Source: a virus
Virus record (IMG/VR): IMGVR_UViG_3300042691_034982
Span: 1-21,353 of that record
Reading direction: 5' to 3' (one strand)
Length of the DNA: 21,353 nucleotides
Positions within the stretch are counted from its first letter, which is position 1; every line of letters begins with the position of its first letter. This document shows, one piece after another, positions 10-17,288 of the stretch. Under the pieces are notes generated by a model. The model searched no databases and was not told the DNA's origin. It was given only the letters and a program-made list of their open reading frames with translations. Both the position numbers and the translations under genes were made by a program.

Positions 10-297
10 TTATACCGCAAATACCTCATAAGGCGTAATAATAACTTCAAATGTACAACCAAATGTACAATCAACTATTTTAAAAAGATCACATCCGTTG
101 TTATCGGTTAAAGTTATCATAACTTGTGGTGCGTTTTGAAATATTTCGGGTATTACCGTATTATAAAAAACTTGTGGTGGAACTGGACCCGGATCTATTG
201 TTCCAAGTAAGGTTGTATTATTCCCATAAACATCAGAAATGTAAACATCTACAGGAAATTCACCATTTGATATTGACTCAACTCTAACCTGTTTCAT
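10..297 (-). CDS. Small virion-associated protein, function unknown (95 aa)
   Basis: I do not recognise a family with confidence. The product is about 95 residues, with alternating hydrophobic and polar stretches that suggest an all-beta fold. It contains an NNGCD motif and three closely spaced cysteines in its last 30 residues (CDLFKIVDCTFGC). There is no signal peptide or membrane segment. I chose the ATG at 295-297 because it overlaps the stop codon of the upstream 711-residue gene in an ATGA arrangement typical of translational coupling; a TTG three codons further upstream is the alternative. As the last gene of the tail cluster here, directly after a fibre-like gene, it could be a fibre tip, fibre-associated or chaperone protein. 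That role is inferred from position only. Confidence 0.72.
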   Translation of the reverse strand: MKQVRVESISNGEFPVDVYISDVYGNNTTLLGTIDPGPVPPQVFYNTVIPEIFQNAPQVMITLTDNNGCDLFKIVDCTFGCTFEVIITPYEVFAV

Positions 298-2429
298 GAT
301 GTACAATTTATATCATATATAATTATCAATTCAACTAGAATTTGTTGACCATTTAATATAGTTTCTCCCGGTATTGTTTGGACAATAATCTGATTATTAT
401 TAGAATCTATATTAACATAACCAACACCAGGTACTGACAATAATAAATTTTGTACAACTGCAAAATATTCTTCATCTGAAGGAACATCAACTAATGAAGT
501 CGATGTATAAAATAAATTTGATGTCGATAATCCCAAAGGATTAACACTAACTTTAACTGTGAAAGTTGCAGAACTTAAAACACATCCCGAATTTGTATCT
601 GTTAAATCAGCAAACCCCTCATTTAACATTTGTAATAACCCACATTTAGTCGGCGATTGAATTTCAAATTCCTCACCTCCCATAACATAAGTTTGATAGT
701 TTGAGTATAATGAATTACAAACAATCTCTGTCGTATTTGTTAAAGTACACCCACTAGCATCAGTAACAGTCAAACTATATGTACCTGCGGTTAACCCAGT
801 TACATTTATTTGTTGCGGGTTACCAACAACGTTGTCTGACCAATCAAAAGTGTATGGTGCATTACCAGATGAAATGAATGCCGTAATAGTCCCACCATTT
901 CCATTACCACAAGAAGTGGAGAATAGAGAAAAAGTCAATGGATTACTTTGAGTAATTAATATTTGTTGTGATTGGTAACATCCAGTCGCATCAGTTACTT
1001 TTAAAGTATGTTGACCAGATGATATACTTGTATATGTAACAGCAGTTAGGTTAGTATCTACATAATATTCAATGTCATCCAAAGAATATGTTAACGGTAA
1101 TGTATATCCTGTGCCAACAAAAACATTAATCTTACCGTTTGATAAATTGCAAGTTGTACCAGTTGTTTCAGCAGTAAATGTAAATTTGTTACTTGTAATT
1201 AAAATAACTTCTTCAGAATATGAACATAAATTCGCGTCTTGTACAAAAACTGTGTATGTTCCTGCTGATAGATTTGAAAATGAATAATTCAATAAACTAG
1301 AGGTAATATTTTGTGTTGAACTATCTGGATACACCAAAGTATAAATGTATGGCGCAGTGCCTCCAACTAAATTCACAGTTATTACCCCATCATTACTATA
1401 ACAACTAGAATTGACTGTTGAGACAGTCACCGAATCTATACCTTCAGGTGAAGATAAAAAGGCACTTGCCTGAAAATTACATAACGCAACATCCGTTACA
1501 TTAAAAGTATACGGACCAGCCGTTAAACCTGTTAAAGTGAGTTCCCTACTATATGATATTATGTAATATCCTGTTGATGCCGAGTAATAAAACGGTTCGG
1601 TACCTCCAGTGATTTGTATCGTTAAACTACCATCATTATTTAAACAAGTAGGCGGTATCGCAATAAATTGTCCTAACCCAACGGGATCTACATCTGTTAT
1701 TGTACCTGTTTTAGATACAGAACATCCGAGAGCATCAGTTACAGTTGCAGAATAAACACCACTAGTCAATCCTGTGATTGATGAACCCGTTAAACTATTA
1801 CTCCAAAGATAAGTATATGGTGGCGTACCTGTAATTCCTGTGATATATATCTTACCTAGCGGTTGAGTTCCACATGAAGAATTTGGAACAACATATAACC
1901 CGAAATCTAATGGTGTAGATTCTTGTATTATAAAATCTTGTGTTTTTGCAGTACATCCCCCTATATCTTGAACTAACACATAGTAAGTACCCGCAGTTAA
2001 ATTTGTAAATTCAACTTCAGATGTATTTGTTATTGCAGATGAGATATAGACATCTGAAGTGTCATATAAATAAAAATTTGTTGATGAAAAATTTGATGTT
2101 GATGTTGCAATTACGTATCCATTATTTTCATCACAAGTAGTATCCTGAACTTCAACAATTGAACCTAAAACACCACTCGAAACCGGTATATTTATGTAAT
2201 ATTCTAAATTTACGGGTAACGTTGAATCGTTAACCCTAACTATGTATGTGTCTCCAGATAAACCACTTATAGTTACTGGAGTTAAAACTCCAATAGATGT
2301 ACCAGTGTATGGTGAAATCCATTCTACAGTGTAAGGTGGCGTACCCCCATACAAAAATAATGTAATTGCCCCACTACTAGTATTAGAGCAATCTCCTGTA
2401 ACTGAAATATCATAATTAAAACTTGCCAT
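294..2429 (-). CDS. SprB-repeat tail fibre / adhesin-like protein (711 aa)
   Basis: Residues about 14-568 consist of about seven divergent repeats of 55-75 residues. Each starts near a cysteine followed by an N/G-rich turn (CLNNDG, CYSNDG, CNLSNG), carries a GG-T-x-PY core (GGTPPY, GGTAPY), then a GLTAGTY-like turn, and ends in a VTDA-x-GC-like motif. This matches the SprB repeat of Flavobacteria cell-surface gliding adhesins. Most repeats have a cysteine at each end (for example C186/C236, C262/C317, C507/C561), possibly disulphide-bonded. Residues about 594-711 form a separate C-terminal domain that also resembles the end of the neighbouring 993-residue protein. There is no signal peptide and no type IX secretion sorting domain, and the gene sits in a tail operon, so I infer a virion fibre or receptor-binding protein rather than a cell adhesin. 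The ATG at 2427-2429 lies 4 bases after the upstream stop. Confidence 0.82.
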   Translation of the reverse strand: MASFNYDISVTGDCSNTSSGAITLFLYGGTPPYTVEWISPYTGTSIGVLTPVTISGLSGDTYIVRVNDSTLPVNLEYYINIPVSSGVLGSIVEVQDTTCDENNGYVIATSTSNFSSTNFYLYDTSDVYISSAITNTSEVEFTNLTAGTYYVLVQDIGGCTAKTQDFIIQESTPLDFGLYVVPNSSCGTQPLGKIYITGITGTPPYTYLWSNSLTGSSITGLTSGVYSATVTDALGCSVSKTGTITDVDPVGLGQFIAIPPTCLNNDGSLTIQITGGTEPFYYSASTGYYIISYSRELTLTGLTAGPYTFNVTDVALCNFQASAFLSSPEGIDSVTVSTVNSSCYSNDGVITVNLVGGTAPYIYTLVYPDSSTQNITSSLLNYSFSNLSAGTYTVFVQDANLCSYSEEVILITSNKFTFTAETTGTTCNLSNGKINVFVGTGYTLPLTYSLDDIEYYVDTNLTAVTYTSISSGQHTLKVTDATGCYQSQQILITQSNPLTFSLFSTSCGNGNGGTITAFISSGNAPYTFDWSDNVVGNPQQINVTGLTAGTYSLTVTDASGCTLTNTTEIVCNSLYSNYQTYVMGGEEFEIQSPTKCGLLQMLNEGFADLTDTNSGCVLSSATFTVKVSVNPLGLSTSNLFYTSTSLVDVPSDEEYFAVVQNLLLSVPGVGYVNIDSNNNQIIVQTIPGETILNGQQILVELIIIYDINCTS
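726..2390 (-). repeat. Tandem protein-level SprB-like repeats in the fibre gene
   Basis: About seven tandem units encode residues 14-568 of the 711-residue protein, starting at cysteines 14, 99, 186, 262, 343, 427 and 507. The units are clearly related in protein sequence but have diverged in DNA sequence; I see no long identical DNA copies, so this is an old expansion rather than a recent duplication. The first unit lacks the closing cysteine, and the second lacks the GG-T-PPY core. Confidence 0.75.
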
Positions 2430-2433
2430 TATA

Positions 2434-5415
2434 TCAATTACAATTTATATTTAGACTGATACCAACATTTAAATTTAATATTTGATTTAAATTTCTCGGT
2501 GTCATAGTTAATCCATTTATTGTTAATAAGTTTCCATTAAGAGAATAACCAAAATTAAAATTATTCAGATTTGATAAATAATTAATCAAAGTATTTCTCC
2601 ACATATTATTAGTCGGCACATCATTTATTCCGTATCCCACATAAAAAGGTTCTAGTATTATTTGATTAGTACCAATTTTCAAATCAACAAACCATGTCGT
2701 TGATACGGATTCTTGGATACAATCATTTAAAGTTAATCCACTGGACGCCAAAAATGAATTGATTCTGTTTGTTAAAATACTTTGGAAATTTGATACCGTG
2801 GTATCTCCATTTAGCCATGGATATATATAAAACTCAACAAATTCAGATGCACACGTATAATCAAAAATACTTGATATAATATAACAAGGGTCTACGGGAA
2901 CCGGAACAAATTGACATCCTCGTTGTCTCCTATAAACAAATTTCTGCTTGTGTAATACCGAATTTTCAAACCTTGTACCTGTATTCCATATTGTTGTCGC
3001 AGGAATCATTTGTTCTACTAACTTCATCCAATATGGGCCCAAACCATTTACATAATCAATTAATTTTTGATATGTATATTTGTTTGTAGGTATTCCAACA
3101 GTTTCTTCGGACTCTATATATTTCCACCAAATTGATTGTAATGTAGGATAACCACCTGTTTTACCATCTGTTATGTATTGTCTATTTCTAACATTTACCA
3201 TATTTTCCCAAAATGTTTGAGAAAATTCAAAGAACGTTTTCTTTTTTGGTTCAGGGTTTACAAATGTAGAATCTACACCACCAGGTACAGGATAATTAAC
3301 AGTTAAACCAGTTTCTGGTATTGGATAATCATATAATCTAGATTGCTCCCACACATCATACACTAAACCTTGTCCAGGATTTAAGTATAAATCAACATTC
3401 TTAACATTTAAAACTAATTTTTCATTATCTATAAAGTAATAAGCGTTATAATCCGCTTGATTTGATATTCTTAATTTATCATCATCTGATAGCCATGATT
3501 TATTATTATCAACAATTTTTCTTAACTTAAATCCTTCATTCATATAAGGAAAGTCTCTAAATCTATCAAGATAAATTTGACCGTAAGTAAATGGTTGTAG
3601 TTGAGTTTGTATATCGTAATTTTGTCCTGTATAAACCAAACCCGTTAATTGTACCTCATCAGGACTTCTATGTTGTGGTGTTGATTCATACCATCCCGCT
3701 CCTATTTGAAAATAGTAATCTTCAGTATTAATAGGTGCTTTAGGATATCCCTGACTATCCATAGGATATTCCTCCAAAGTTATTGTGACATCTTGATATG
3801 CGGTACTTGTGGTAATTGCAGTAAAAATTTGACCCTTAATTTTATAAAAATCTCCAGTCACATAATCCGGCGTTTTTTCAACATAGGTGCCACCTGATAT
3901 TTGAGCCCATTGTATATAGAATTGGTCTAAATTAATCTTTTGGTCGGCCAAATAAATATGTTCATTAAATTCAACCAAAGATTCCGGCGCACCTATCAAT
4001 CTCATAAGAAACTCAACAGACCTTCGTGTACCCTTTGACTTAAAAAGATACGCCGAATTCAAAATTAAATTTCGATAAAATGCATAATTTAATTCAGTCG
4101 GAGTTAACGCTCGAGCATATCCTGGATATGTAGGTGTATTTGTATTTCCAAATACTGAACTTAAAAAATCTTCATCAGTAATAGGTGAAAAATTAGATGA
4201 CCACCCCAAAGTTTGCGATAAATTAACTAAAAGTTGTGATGGGATATCATTACCTGGATTGTAATTAACTGAATTCATATATGCCAACGCATCAATGAAT
4301 TGTTTTACTTGGTCAAAACTTCTTCCGTATATTTGAAATATTTTCTCAACTTTTTGTCCGAGTGTATCAAATTCTTTAAGTGAATCTGTAATGAGAAATC
4401 TGGATATTAAATTTGTTTTAAACGAATCTAAATTTTCCGCAATTGCACCCAACTCTTCCAAATAACTATCAAACGCATATGACCTAATATCTAAATTCCA
4501 AAATCCATCTTTTGGCCAAGTAACTTCTTTATATAATGTATAAAACTGACCTGATATATCTTGTTCAGGAACTTGGAATACTGCAGTATATTCAGGTCGT
4601 ATAAGTCTGTTTAGTAAAAACTTCTCTACTTCATCAAAGTTTTCTGCAAAAACTTTATCAACAATAAAATCATTTGGTCTAATTTGATATTCGGATACTG
4701 TATCCGAAACAGAACCACCAAATGGACTACCCGAAACATAGAATTTTAGATTTCCACTAGTAGACGTATTTGTAGGAGTAAATGAAATTATATTATATAT
4801 ATTATCATTTATTGATATACAATAATCCAAATAAGTATTATATAAATTTCTATATTTGGATACTTCAATTTCTCTATACGATAAATTTGTGGTTGCATTT
4901 ATAGTGTAATCTATGTCAAACGGATTTTTAAGTCTATCAACATTTACCTCAAAATATGTCTCATCATTTACAACATCATAATATATATTCTCCGCAGTAT
5001 ATCCTGTGGTGAAATCAGAATTTAAATAAACAACTTCAAGTGCTGCAGGAAACTGATTTATAATTTTTGTAACGGATACACTAAACCTTTTGTTTAATGA
5101 CCCATACATAGAGAAATTCAATACCTGCGATACATCATAATTTGGATATACTCTGAATTGAGTCGCAATTATTCTCCTACTTTCCGTTAAATCCTCTATA
5201 TTCATAGAGTTCAGATTCATAGGTTCTGAAAACGCACCTACATTAAAATTCCTATTAACTTTTTCAGTAACAGATGTGGTAAATTCAAAATTTCCTTGCG
5301 TTAAACCTCCTCCTGTGACAGTCTGTAATCCAACTATGTCATCAGAGAAGGCACCCGCTCCGTTTCCTGGTTGAGGTGGATAAAAATATTTTGTCCTGTC
5401 TATATTTACCGCCAT
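2434..5415 (-). CDS. Putative baseplate wedge protein, gp7 / P2 gpI-like (993 aa)
   Basis: A large structural protein close in length to T4 gp7 (about 1030 residues). Residues about 340-480 look like the tail-protein-I type region found in contractile tail systems: a helical stretch with YGRSFDQVKQFIDALAYMN, then NDIPSQLLVNLSQTLGW and a KGTRRSVEFLMRLIGAP motif. Residues about 790-835 hold GPYWMKLVEQMIPATTIW and a basic RRQRGCQ end, also typical of such proteins. In T4 and P2 this component pairs with the gp6/gpJ protein to form the wedge core. Residues about 876-993 form an extra C-terminal domain shared with the downstream fibre-like protein. The ATG overlaps the upstream stop by one base (TAATG). 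That it is a tail structural protein is fairly sure; the gp7/gpI identity is an inference from motif style, size and gene order. Confidence 0.72.
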   Translation of the reverse strand: MAVNIDRTKYFYPPQPGNGAGAFSDDIVGLQTVTGGGLTQGNFEFTTSVTEKVNRNFNVGAFSEPMNLNSMNIEDLTESRRIIATQFRVYPNYDVSQVLNFSMYGSLNKRFSVSVTKIINQFPAALEVVYLNSDFTTGYTAENIYYDVVNDETYFEVNVDRLKNPFDIDYTINATTNLSYREIEVSKYRNLYNTYLDYCISINDNIYNIISFTPTNTSTSGNLKFYVSGSPFGGSVSDTVSEYQIRPNDFIVDKVFAENFDEVEKFLLNRLIRPEYTAVFQVPEQDISGQFYTLYKEVTWPKDGFWNLDIRSYAFDSYLEELGAIAENLDSFKTNLISRFLITDSLKEFDTLGQKVEKIFQIYGRSFDQVKQFIDALAYMNSVNYNPGNDIPSQLLVNLSQTLGWSSNFSPITDEDFLSSVFGNTNTPTYPGYARALTPTELNYAFYRNLILNSAYLFKSKGTRRSVEFLMRLIGAPESLVEFNEHIYLADQKINLDQFYIQWAQISGGTYVEKTPDYVTGDFYKIKGQIFTAITTSTAYQDVTITLEEYPMDSQGYPKAPINTEDYYFQIGAGWYESTPQHRSPDEVQLTGLVYTGQNYDIQTQLQPFTYGQIYLDRFRDFPYMNEGFKLRKIVDNNKSWLSDDDKLRISNQADYNAYYFIDNEKLVLNVKNVDLYLNPGQGLVYDVWEQSRLYDYPIPETGLTVNYPVPGGVDSTFVNPEPKKKTFFEFSQTFWENMVNVRNRQYITDGKTGGYPTLQSIWWKYIESEETVGIPTNKYTYQKLIDYVNGLGPYWMKLVEQMIPATTIWNTGTRFENSVLHKQKFVYRRQRGCQFVPVPVDPCYIISSIFDYTCASEFVEFYIYPWLNGDTTVSNFQSILTNRINSFLASSGLTLNDCIQESVSTTWFVDLKIGTNQIILEPFYVGYGINDVPTNNMWRNTLINYLSNLNNFNFGYSLNGNLLTINGLTMTPRNLNQILNLNVGISLNINCN

Positions 5416-6572: not shown

Positions 6573-7655
6573 TTGCTTGTTTTCAACATTATAAAAATTA
6601 TATCCGTAGTTCAACATATCCGCCAAATTATCCACCTCACCCAATCTTTGTATTCTTTCGTATGCACTATTTTTACCCCTCTCTACGAAAACATTTGTCT
6701 GAATTTGTGGTTGATCTATAACTTTTAATAATACTTCCTCTTTAGTTATCGGAACCGCAGTTAAATTATTTTCAGTAAATCCTGACGATGGTTCAAAAAA
6801 TAAGGTTAAACCATTATTATAATCATAATAATTTACTTGATTAATTGTGTATGCAGTGAATACATCATTCATATCTGTAATAGCCCCCCAAATTTGACCG
6901 TTAGCAATCACAGGAACCCCTACTTGATACTTTGGTTTTCCATATTGAGCAAGTTCTTGAACTCTAGATTTTGTCAAACCTGATATTGTATATGGTACTT
7001 GCACATAATCATTTGATGTTTGTGCCGAAACTACATTCACAGCGTCACCTGAAAAAATATAATTATAAGATACAGGAGTTGCTGACCAACTACCCCCTAA
7101 AGGTATAAAATATGCCGTTCCTTGCGGATTTGGTATTTGTACATCAACAAAAGGTGTTGTGATAGTTTTTTGAACTTTTGTTATACCCCAAGGATTTTGC
7201 TGTTGTAGTGTAATAGTGTATGTTCGTGATGCTTGAGGATATATGTGTGATAAATAATTAGGTGTAAATGTGTTAATAACTTGCGATGGAGATCCGTCAC
7301 CCCAATTTATGGTATAAACCGATAACTCCAAAAACTTTTCAAATTCACCAGAGGTATTATAAACATACCAAGTATATGGGTCACCTGTTGTCGCCGAAAA
7401 TATAAAGTTTGTTACCACATCTTTCTGTAATATAGCCCCATCAAATGGACTGTAATAACCACAATCAACAGTATTCTCCCTTAATAAAATATTAACAGTC
7501 AATCCAGTTAATGTAGAAGACCCATTTGGTCCTGAACTAACAACCTGGGTCATACCCGAATATACACCAACTTTTTCTCCTTTGTAATCAACAACAGATA
7601 AATCACCTTTGATTGTTTCAGGAGATACTATAAATTTGTAATAGTCTTGAGTCAT
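6570..7655 (-). CDS. PKD-domain tail/baseplate structural protein (361 aa)
   Basis: Residues about 80-168 form a PKD (polycystic kidney disease) immunoglobulin-like domain. It shows the signature INWGDGSPS at 116-124 and the closing strand LSHIYPQASRTYTITL at 135-150. PKD domains are common in surface proteins of Bacteroidota and occur in phage fibres, where they mediate weak binding to polysaccharide or protein surfaces. The remaining C-terminal half is of unknown fold and ends in a charged segment (VERGKNSAYERIQRLGEVDN near 324-343) that could be an assembly or attachment element. No signal peptide or membrane segment is seen. The ATG overlaps the upstream stop by one base (TAATG), implying coupled translation. 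Its place inside the baseplate operon makes a virion role, perhaps a decoration or fibre-network protein, the best inference. Confidence 0.75.
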   Translation of the reverse strand: MTQDYYKFIVSPETIKGDLSVVDYKGEKVGVYSGMTQVVSSGPNGSSTLTGLTVNILLRENTVDCGYYSPFDGAILQKDVVTNFIFSATTGDPYTWYVYNTSGEFEKFLELSVYTINWGDGSPSQVINTFTPNYLSHIYPQASRTYTITLQQQNPWGITKVQKTITTPFVDVQIPNPQGTAYFIPLGGSWSATPVSYNYIFSGDAVNVVSAQTSNDYVQVPYTISGLTKSRVQELAQYGKPKYQVGVPVIANGQIWGAITDMNDVFTAYTINQVNYYDYNNGLTLFFEPSSGFTENNLTAVPITKEEVLLKVIDQPQIQTNVFVERGKNSAYERIQRLGEVDNLADMLNYGYNFYNVENKQ

Positions 7656-14974: not shown

Positions 14975-16813
14975 TTAAGAAAAAGTTATTGATTGGAAAT
15001 TTTTAACAGAAACTCTAATATCTTTATTTGGATATCTAACTTGATAAACTTGAGATGGTTGAGCAAATATAGTATCATCAACAGGTTTAATTTGTTTTGT
15101 TACAGGATCCGAATATTCCATAGATGTTTCAGATGATGAGTATTGTCCTCCAACATTATTAAACACACTTATACCAGCAACAGTTAGGACACCATTTTGA
15201 TTTTGTATTATACTTTGTAATTCAGACAAATAAACATTTTGTCCAAGTTGTCTATTTTGAGGATCTAAATATGTTGAAATTCTATCTATTACGGTAGATA
15301 TTACTTGTCCGGAATTTTGTGCGGAATCTAAAACTATTGAAACATCTATACTCAAATCTATAACTTCAGCAGATATAATAGATATATAATCATTTATCAT
15401 CCTATAATTTGATAGATATGTAGCAACATTTTGTTTCAAAGTATTTGAAATTATTGGTGTAAGTTTTCCAGATGTATCATAAGATAACATCTGAATAATA
15501 ATTTTATTATTGTTCTCTGTTATAGAAACTTTTGCAGGTGCACCATATTCTGCCGGCATAGTTCTTAAAATCGCCTCATAATCTTGTACAGTAACTGCTC
15601 TTTTTTGTGCGGCAAAATTAAAAGACACATAATTCCTAACTTCTTCCAACGAAGGAACTCCAGCACCTCCAATCGCAGCAGTGACATTATTACATCTTAA
15701 AGAATTTATAACAGAGGAGTTAGTTAATTCAGATGGCCCATTTACAAAAAATGATACAGTTCCTATTGAATTAATCACATTAGTGCCAAGATTTGACGCC
15801 AATCCCCCACCAACTCTGTATTGTATAAATAAAGTAGAATTAGGTGTTAAGGTTGAACCAAGTGAAAAATTATTTGAATATCTTTGTAGGTCTAAAGTCA
15901 CCCCTAGTGTGGTAAATTGGTTCAAAGCATCCTGTGCAGTATTTGTTCCCCCACCAAAAGTTATTTTCTTGAAACCTTCAGGTGTAAATTCAGAAATAAA
16001 CCTATTTTGTGTTTGTATATACCTTCCTACTTTTATTCCTGGTTGGTCTGAAACTTTAGTCGGATCTTCTATGAATATTCTATCCTCCGCCAAAGCGTCT
16101 ACTTCATACCATCTGTTTTGCACCCCCAAAAATTCGGACACGGTAGGTATATTTGTATAATCAGTACCACTTTTTAATAACACACTAGTAATACCTAAAA
16201 CATTCTTTTCAGGTAAAAAGAGTTCATAGAATGGTCTAACATCATTTGGTGTAATAACTTGTTTAAAAACTTTTGTAATACCATTAACAACTACTTCTCG
16301 TTTTGTGATAGTATAATTAACTAAAACACCATTAGCATTGAAGTTAGGTATTTTCAATCTATTCGGAAATCCTTGTGAATTATATGGAGATGCAAAATCT
16401 ACATCGGTAACATTTTCAAAAACAATACCAGCTCCAACAACTTGAGATCCTCTTGCTAATACTCCAAGATATCTTTCGTCTTCTTTATCCCCAAAAGCCG
16501 GAACGGTAATCGAGAAATCAACTAACGCAACAGATGGTCTTTGTCCTGGTATTTTTAATCCATAGGTTCTCGCAATATTATAGACAGATGATTTTTGTTG
16601 TGCATATTGTAACACAGTTTCTTGAATACTTCTATCTATATGATAATGTAGATTATCTGTGACAGCTGCGTTCAAATCCAAAAATACAGAGAATACTGAA
16701 GCATCATTAAAATCCTGTATTAATTCAGGATAATAAGTTCTCACATAATTTACCAATTCGGTTCGTATCGCTTGGTAATCTCTTGTTGTATATGATATAT
16801 TTCTATTTGCCAT
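14975..16813 (-). CDS. 6: Baseplate wedge protein, gp6 / baseplate J-like (612 aa)
   Basis: Resembles the gp6 / P2 gpJ family, which forms the inner ring of the baseplate wedge in contractile tails. The N-terminal region has the typical helical start: TTRDYQAIRTELVNYV at residues 9-24, a DFNDASVFSVFLDLNAAV stretch at 34-51, DNLHYHIDRSIQETVL at 53-68, then ARTYGLKIPGQRPS at 81-94. The C-terminal half carries the conserved baseplate-J segment with SLEEVRNYVSFNFAAQKRAV and VTVQDYEAILRTMPAEYG, followed by a domain with YLSELQSIIQNQNGV. The length is close to T4 gp6 (about 660 residues). The ATG lies 4 bases after the gp25-like stop, mirroring the W-J order of P2. Start and frame are well supported. 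Confidence 0.9.
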   Translation of the reverse strand: MANRNISYTTRDYQAIRTELVNYVRTYYPELIQDFNDASVFSVFLDLNAAVTDNLHYHIDRSIQETVLQYAQQKSSVYNIARTYGLKIPGQRPSVALVDFSITVPAFGDKEDERYLGVLARGSQVVGAGIVFENVTDVDFASPYNSQGFPNRLKIPNFNANGVLVNYTITKREVVVNGITKVFKQVITPNDVRPFYELFLPEKNVLGITSVLLKSGTDYTNIPTVSEFLGVQNRWYEVDALAEDRIFIEDPTKVSDQPGIKVGRYIQTQNRFISEFTPEGFKKITFGGGTNTAQDALNQFTTLGVTLDLQRYSNNFSLGSTLTPNSTLFIQYRVGGGLASNLGTNVINSIGTVSFFVNGPSELTNSSVINSLRCNNVTAAIGGAGVPSLEEVRNYVSFNFAAQKRAVTVQDYEAILRTMPAEYGAPAKVSITENNNKIIIQMLSYDTSGKLTPIISNTLKQNVATYLSNYRMINDYISIISAEVIDLSIDVSIVLDSAQNSGQVISTVIDRISTYLDPQNRQLGQNVYLSELQSIIQNQNGVLTVAGISVFNNVGGQYSSSETSMEYSDPVTKQIKPVDDTIFAQPSQVYQVRYPNKDIRVSVKNFQSITFS

Positions 16814-16817
16814 TTGA

Positions 16818-17288
16818 TTAAATATTTATAATTACAAAATCGCTTTGAGAGAAAGTACTCCTATTATTAGAGTAGTCAATTCTTACTTTTGCGGTATATT
16901 CTGATGTCCCCTTACCTGGAAATCTATATATACTGATATCACTAGGCCCGGCAATATTTTCGCCAGTTTGACCATCAACTTCACTTGTTATATCCGCCGG
17001 TGATATAGTTACACTATTTAATAACAAATTTGGCATATACTTTTCAACCGCATCACGAATGTCAGATTCTATCGCACTAAATGTAAGTCCATCAAATGGT
17101 TCAAATAAAAATTCATACAGTCTAGTTCCAAAGTCAGGTAAATAATATCTTGATCCCTTTCTTGTTAAAAGAAGATGAATTAAATCTGCTTTGATTTCTT
17201 CAGCCTCTGTTTCAGTCAGCTGTAAGTAATCACCCCTTGTTGAATCCCTAAATGGGAAATTAATACCGTAGGTTCTTCCTGCTGCCAT
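16818..17288 (-). CDS. 25: Baseplate wedge protein, gp25 / gpW-like (156 aa)
   Basis: Matches the gp25/gpW family of small baseplate wedge proteins, which clamp the wedge core near the start of the tail sheath. The central block is diagnostic: EIKADLIHLLLTRKGSRYYL at residues 31-50, PDFGTRLYEFLFEPFDGLTF at 51-70 and ESDIRDAVEKYMPNL at 74-88. The family is usually about 120-150 residues; the extra length comes from a loop at about 97-130 (ADITSEVDGQTGENIAGPSD) before the final strands. It is the first gene after the terminator at 17314-17348, so it probably heads the late structural transcript. The gp6-like gene follows after 4 bases. Confidence 0.92.
   Translation of the reverse strand: MAAGRTYGINFPFRDSTRGDYLQLTETEAEEIKADLIHLLLTRKGSRYYLPDFGTRLYEFLFEPFDGLTFSAIESDIRDAVEKYMPNLLLNSVTISPADITSEVDGQTGENIAGPSDISIYRFPGKGTSEYTAKVRIDYSNNRSTFSQSDFVIINI

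Follow-up and report, generated by a model that had tools for sequence, protein, structure and literature searches.

Two adjacent tail proteins of otherwise different architecture, a 711-aa fibre-like protein and a 993-aa baseplate wedge protein, share an end module of about 120 residues, and the homology of its two copies is confirmed by profile, structural and invariant-residue tests. Both proteins are encoded in the window analysed here, the 21,353 nt virus record IMGVR_UViG_3300042691_034982 (positions 1 to 21,353), whose minus strand carries a baseplate gene cluster. The order in this cluster is a gp25-like baseplate protein (16818..17288; Pfam GPW_gp25, E 1e-11), a gp6/baseplate J-like wedge protein (14975..16813; Pfam Baseplate_J, E 2.8e-6; PHROG 219, E 9e-22), a 1569-aa protein, four mid-size proteins, the 993-aa protein (2434..5415) and the 711-aa SprB-repeat protein (294..2429). 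As delimited by profiles, models and alignment, the module occupies residues 594-711 of the fibre (297..650) and residues 876-993 of the wedge protein (2437..2790), exactly where a sequence-only reading of the window had placed it.

Homology and predicted fold

Compared on their own, the two window sequences give a BLASTP E value of 0.026, and a forced alignment shows 25% identity, so that their likeness by eye is only a hint. Profiles built from close relatives aligned with P 1e-4 and a score of 30.7 in hhalign, whereas 300 column shuffles did not exceed 23.3. With divergent relatives added, the comparison of residues 594-711 with 876-993 reached P 3.3e-8, a probability of 95% and a score of 50.7, in an alignment spanning nearly the whole module; here 400 column shuffles gave at most 29.3 (mean 12.8) and unrelated proteins of the window at most 27.4. 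This climb of the score with added diversity is expected of true homology. Extending the flanks gave P 2.3e-7, and the homologous stretch may reach back about 20 residues further to a C...Y motif, which would correspond to fibre residue ~570 (position ~725) and wedge residue ~855 (position ~2853). In large contigs, the profile of each module retrieves the other protein, with cross-hits down to E 2.5e-9 among ten contigs, and the two modules of one divergent phage match at E 2e-5 even when simply compared as a pair. Convergence on a similar alternation of helices and strands might be invoked because the two window sequences, aligned as a pair, do not reach significance at database scale; such an origin is extremely unlikely in view of the profile, fold and invariant-residue tests, and chance resemblance was ruled out by the column shuffles and the control proteins.

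The exact strings that had first drawn attention to the two ends were partly a matter of luck. The shared cysteines hold throughout the family, but most relatives of the fibre end in D-I-(M/I)-C-L-(S/T) and not in INC, and the QQILVEL/NQILNLN strand, put forward as a common feature, is a pair that is not conserved among relatives. In an alignment of 156 modules (78 from wedge proteins and 78 from fibres), the cysteine of helix 1, the proline preceding helix 2 and the last cysteine were present in 78/78 copies of either type, and a leucine of helix 2 in 77 and 78 of the 78 wedge and fibre copies. In each of the two window proteins, the spacing between the two invariant cysteines is 93 residues. 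A third cysteine follows the hairpin of strands 3 and 4 in 73 of the 78 wedge copies; one column away, a cysteine also occurs in 11 of the 78 fibre copies, those inspected being divergent fibres.

AlphaFold predicts the same order of elements in both modules, namely a strand, a helix, two long strands, a helix, two short strands and a long final strand, the wedge copy having pLDDT values that mostly exceed 90 and the fibre copy values of 82-92. When the wedge model was compared with viral models by Foldseek, the best match was a 714-aa ‘SprB repeat’ fibre (A0A6J5LD72; E 8.3e-5, probability 1.00), ranking above a 985-aa protein which, judging from its length and identity, is probably a homologue of the wedge protein. 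The same fibre was the top viral match of the fibre model (E 2.8e-16). A further match in BFVD, A0A7S9SUG9 of virus NIOZ-UU157, is a lead to a possible occurrence of the module beyond this group of phages. Likeness to solved structures was judged from the wedge model, the search with the fibre model being dominated by its Ig-like repeat, and was weak (Z up to 5.5). The module of either protein had no convincing match in Pfam, in the PHROGs or among PDB sequences; the domain constitutes a new family, although the duplication of a domain between neighbouring tail genes is known in kind.

A possible third copy at the end of a 361-aa protein of the window (6573-7655, minus strand), whose residues 265-361 are weakly similar to the wedge module, scored 27.4, below the shuffle maximum of 29.3; we read this likeness as probably due to chance.

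Distribution and history of the module

Relatives were collected in three scans of viral contigs, which were up to 326 kb in length. The comparison covered 185 records of the wedge protein, of which 92 are distinct, and 166 complete records of the fibre, of which 79 are distinct; since some records represent the same contig twice, the distinct counts are the proper ones. The module was present in every record of both sets (166/166 and 185/185), and a single viral scan yielded at least 495 stretches with a gene for the wedge protein. No further copy was detected in ten large contigs (up to 326 kb), none of which has the module in more than two places, the wedge protein and the fibre. Its carriers form a group of large, abundant and uncultured phages. 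Searches with both modules (tblastn) found none in cultured phages, the syntenic regions of phages immuto and Mel-JY01 and of LR756508 are without it, and no relative appeared in the genome contigs searched.

In a phylogenetic tree, all wedge copies are separated from all fibre copies by one branch (support 1.0, length 2.0). Identity between wedge and fibre modules is 17.3% within a phage and 17.5% between phages, and these nearly equal values rule out gene conversion. Together, the single split and the lack of excess similarity within phages indicate one old duplication without gene conversion. The two proteins are co-inherited, their distances correlating with r ~0.93. An initial estimate of co-evolution gave a partial r of 0.57; residual distances of the two modules correlate with r 0.45-0.51, or 0.28 when only close pairs are considered. 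As this correlation ranks only 3rd to 14th among 227 control segment pairs, above most of them and not unique, co-evolution lends weak support.

Bacteroidota hosts are a guess, based on the SprB repeats and on the gp6-like protein, whose nearest cultured relatives include one from a flavobacterial phage. Large freshwater Bacteroidetes phages with genomes of up to 331 kb have been described (PMC9723584) and may belong to the same clade as the carriers of the module.

The two carrier proteins

The 993-aa protein had been called gp7-like from the letters alone. Its position, downstream of gp25 and gp6 in the baseplate cluster with five genes between gp6 and its own gene, supports this designation, as does its homology to the large protein found downstream of gp25-gp6 in Microcystis phage Mel-JY01 (L108, 1336 aa; E 5e-9) and, weakly, to the counterparts in Flavobacterium phage immuto (L106, 1265 aa) and LR756508 (L107, 1400 aa). 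On the other hand, searches of Pfam, PHROGs, NCBIfam and PDB sequences gave no gp7/gpI or BW3 match, and it is by gene order and distant homology that the protein would fit the gp7/BW3 type of wedge protein. In the syntenic region of Mel-JY01, immuto and LR756508, several adjacent proteins of the tail module also end in one common motif, ‘..TTIGLYDD..LLAVAKLSKPI..’, whose sequence is however unrelated to the module described here; we saw it by eye in L108:29005-37951 (Mel-JY01), L106:28992-31082 (immuto) and L107:29417-34022 (LR756508).

The 711-aa protein consists of SprB/Ig-like repeats followed by the module: Pfam SprB matches it in 6 stretches (E 4.4e-20) and an Ig-like repeat appears in its AlphaFold model. 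A match to PHROG 2973, a Hoc-like head decoration family (E 3e-13), is located on these Ig/SprB repeats; the position of the gene and the module shared with the wedge protein lead us to favour a tail protein over a head decoration. The literature on SprB repeats in phages, of which our coverage was partial, yielded no description of the domain. Five places resembling the SprB repeats of the fibre were also observed in LR756502.1:515782-516981, part of a 642-kb uncultured phage record.

The term ‘C-terminal’ suits the module in one protein better than in the other. It always ends the wedge protein, with 0-13 residues after it, and it ends most fibres, but in 14 of the 79 distinct fibres it is internal, being followed by 14-694 residues, mostly a linker rich in Thr and Pro with varied sequence behind it. 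In a few fibres the part preceding the module is longer, so that the module starts at residue ~740-980 instead of 590-600. The reading of the module as an obligatory terminal tag therefore fails, and it is better described as a constant element of the fibre to which variable sequence may be added. The longer additions, of 152-694 residues, were seen in the fibres of L187, L128, L134, L040, L183, L063, L110, L121 and L060; sequences added after the module are possibly exchangeable adhesins.

Possible roles of the module

The sequence-only reading had offered docking, trimerisation or recognition by a chaperone as the meaning of the shared end, and by analogy with known tails docking appears the most plausible of the three. 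In contractile tails, receptor-binding proteins attach at the C-terminal region of the gp7/BW3-type protein (PMC10811340, PMC10457771), and in a typical baseplate the N-terminal modules of tailspikes are expected to bind the C-terminal domain of BW3 (PMC10811340). The wedge copy of the module resembles T4 gp7, XM1 gp17 and Milano BW3 in forming the C-terminal part of a wedge protein, a likely attachment site for fibres or spikes (PMC10457771, PMC10811340), although the solved members of the BW3 type have no sequence match to it. An alpha/beta domain of ~120 residues was duplicated long ago between the wedge protein and the fibre encoded by the next gene and was kept in both; we propose, at somewhat less than even confidence, that it acts as a peripheral docking module. 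The wedge copy would form the outer C-terminal platform to which receptor-binding proteins attach.

That the fibre carries a copy of the domain from the attachment region of the wedge protein suggests docking of like to like. The fibre copy would pack against the wedge copy, so that the fibre is held close to its C-terminal region while any extension after the module stays free. Such direct binding, a clasp derived from one duplication and perhaps sealed by the invariant cysteines, is a doubtful possibility on present evidence, and conserved modules can persist in two proteins without touching each other, which counts against docking. Two results also count against it: the wedge copy varies more than any other part of its protein, and no homologue of assigned function emerged among solved structures. 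We know of no BW3-type system in which a fibre carries a copy of a wedge domain, nor of any description of fibre attachment by a like-to-like clasp in contractile tails. The cysteines might stabilize a contact between modules, and they bring to mind phage Milano, which has a disulfide network and bonds between its fibres and wedge proteins (PMC10811340). A further parallel may be drawn with the adjacent T4 genes 10, 11 and 12, whose proteins share one fold, the duplicated ‘flower’ motif, in neighbouring peripheral tail genes and contact each other (PMC3004832). The flower motif, however, combines a helix with small beta-sheets in trimeric proteins, whereas the carriers here are a wedge protein and an SprB-repeat fibre; no relation of the module to T4 gp10/gp11/gp12 was found, the flower motif being absent among the structural matches listed.

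Alternatively, the two copies could be parallel docking sites for one third partner and not bind each other, which we consider rather unlikely. The candidates would be the small protein encoded just downstream or a downstream collagen-like fibre; a small protein and proteins with Gly-Thr/Ser repeats follow in most loci, and in some phages extra sequence has been added right after the fibre copy. No partner was identified, however, and this arrangement requires two equivalent sites on very different carriers. The small protein of the window (98 aa, no known family; 10-306, minus strand, after the fibre gene) is a candidate partner with relatives in 68 of the 78 compared loci.

It is unlikely that the module is a generic structural domain which, after its origin from a common ancestor, was reused for now unrelated jobs such as decoration, spacing or local stabilization. 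The low identity between copies (17%), the lack of concerted evolution and the occurrence of Tail tubular protein B among the Foldseek viral-model matches of the wedge model would all agree with such reuse. So would a weak likeness (Z 3.9-5.5) of the alpha/beta arrangement of the wedge copy to domains of a podovirus tail-complex protein (7y22 chain Y) and of the tail sheaths of phages 7-7-1, Milano and A-1(L), although these are different proteins in different places and the Z values are within the range of common arrangements. The strict conservation of the Cys/Pro/Cys triad in both copies across the family, and the fact that the module was never lost from either protein, speak against it.

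A folding tail that serves trimerisation or is recognised by a chaperone would explain why the module ends the wedge protein and most fibres, but is very unlikely, since T4 gp7 is a monomer with one copy per wedge (PMC3004832), the AlphaFold models have no long helix suggestive of a coiled coil, and the fibres that extend beyond the module disfavour a tail recognised by a chaperone.

The domain provides an annotation handle for the tails of abundant uncultured large phages. Beside T4 gp10-12, it represents another case of tails built by domain duplication between neighbouring structural genes, and its presence in both proteins suggests a testable rule for the mounting of fibres in these phages.
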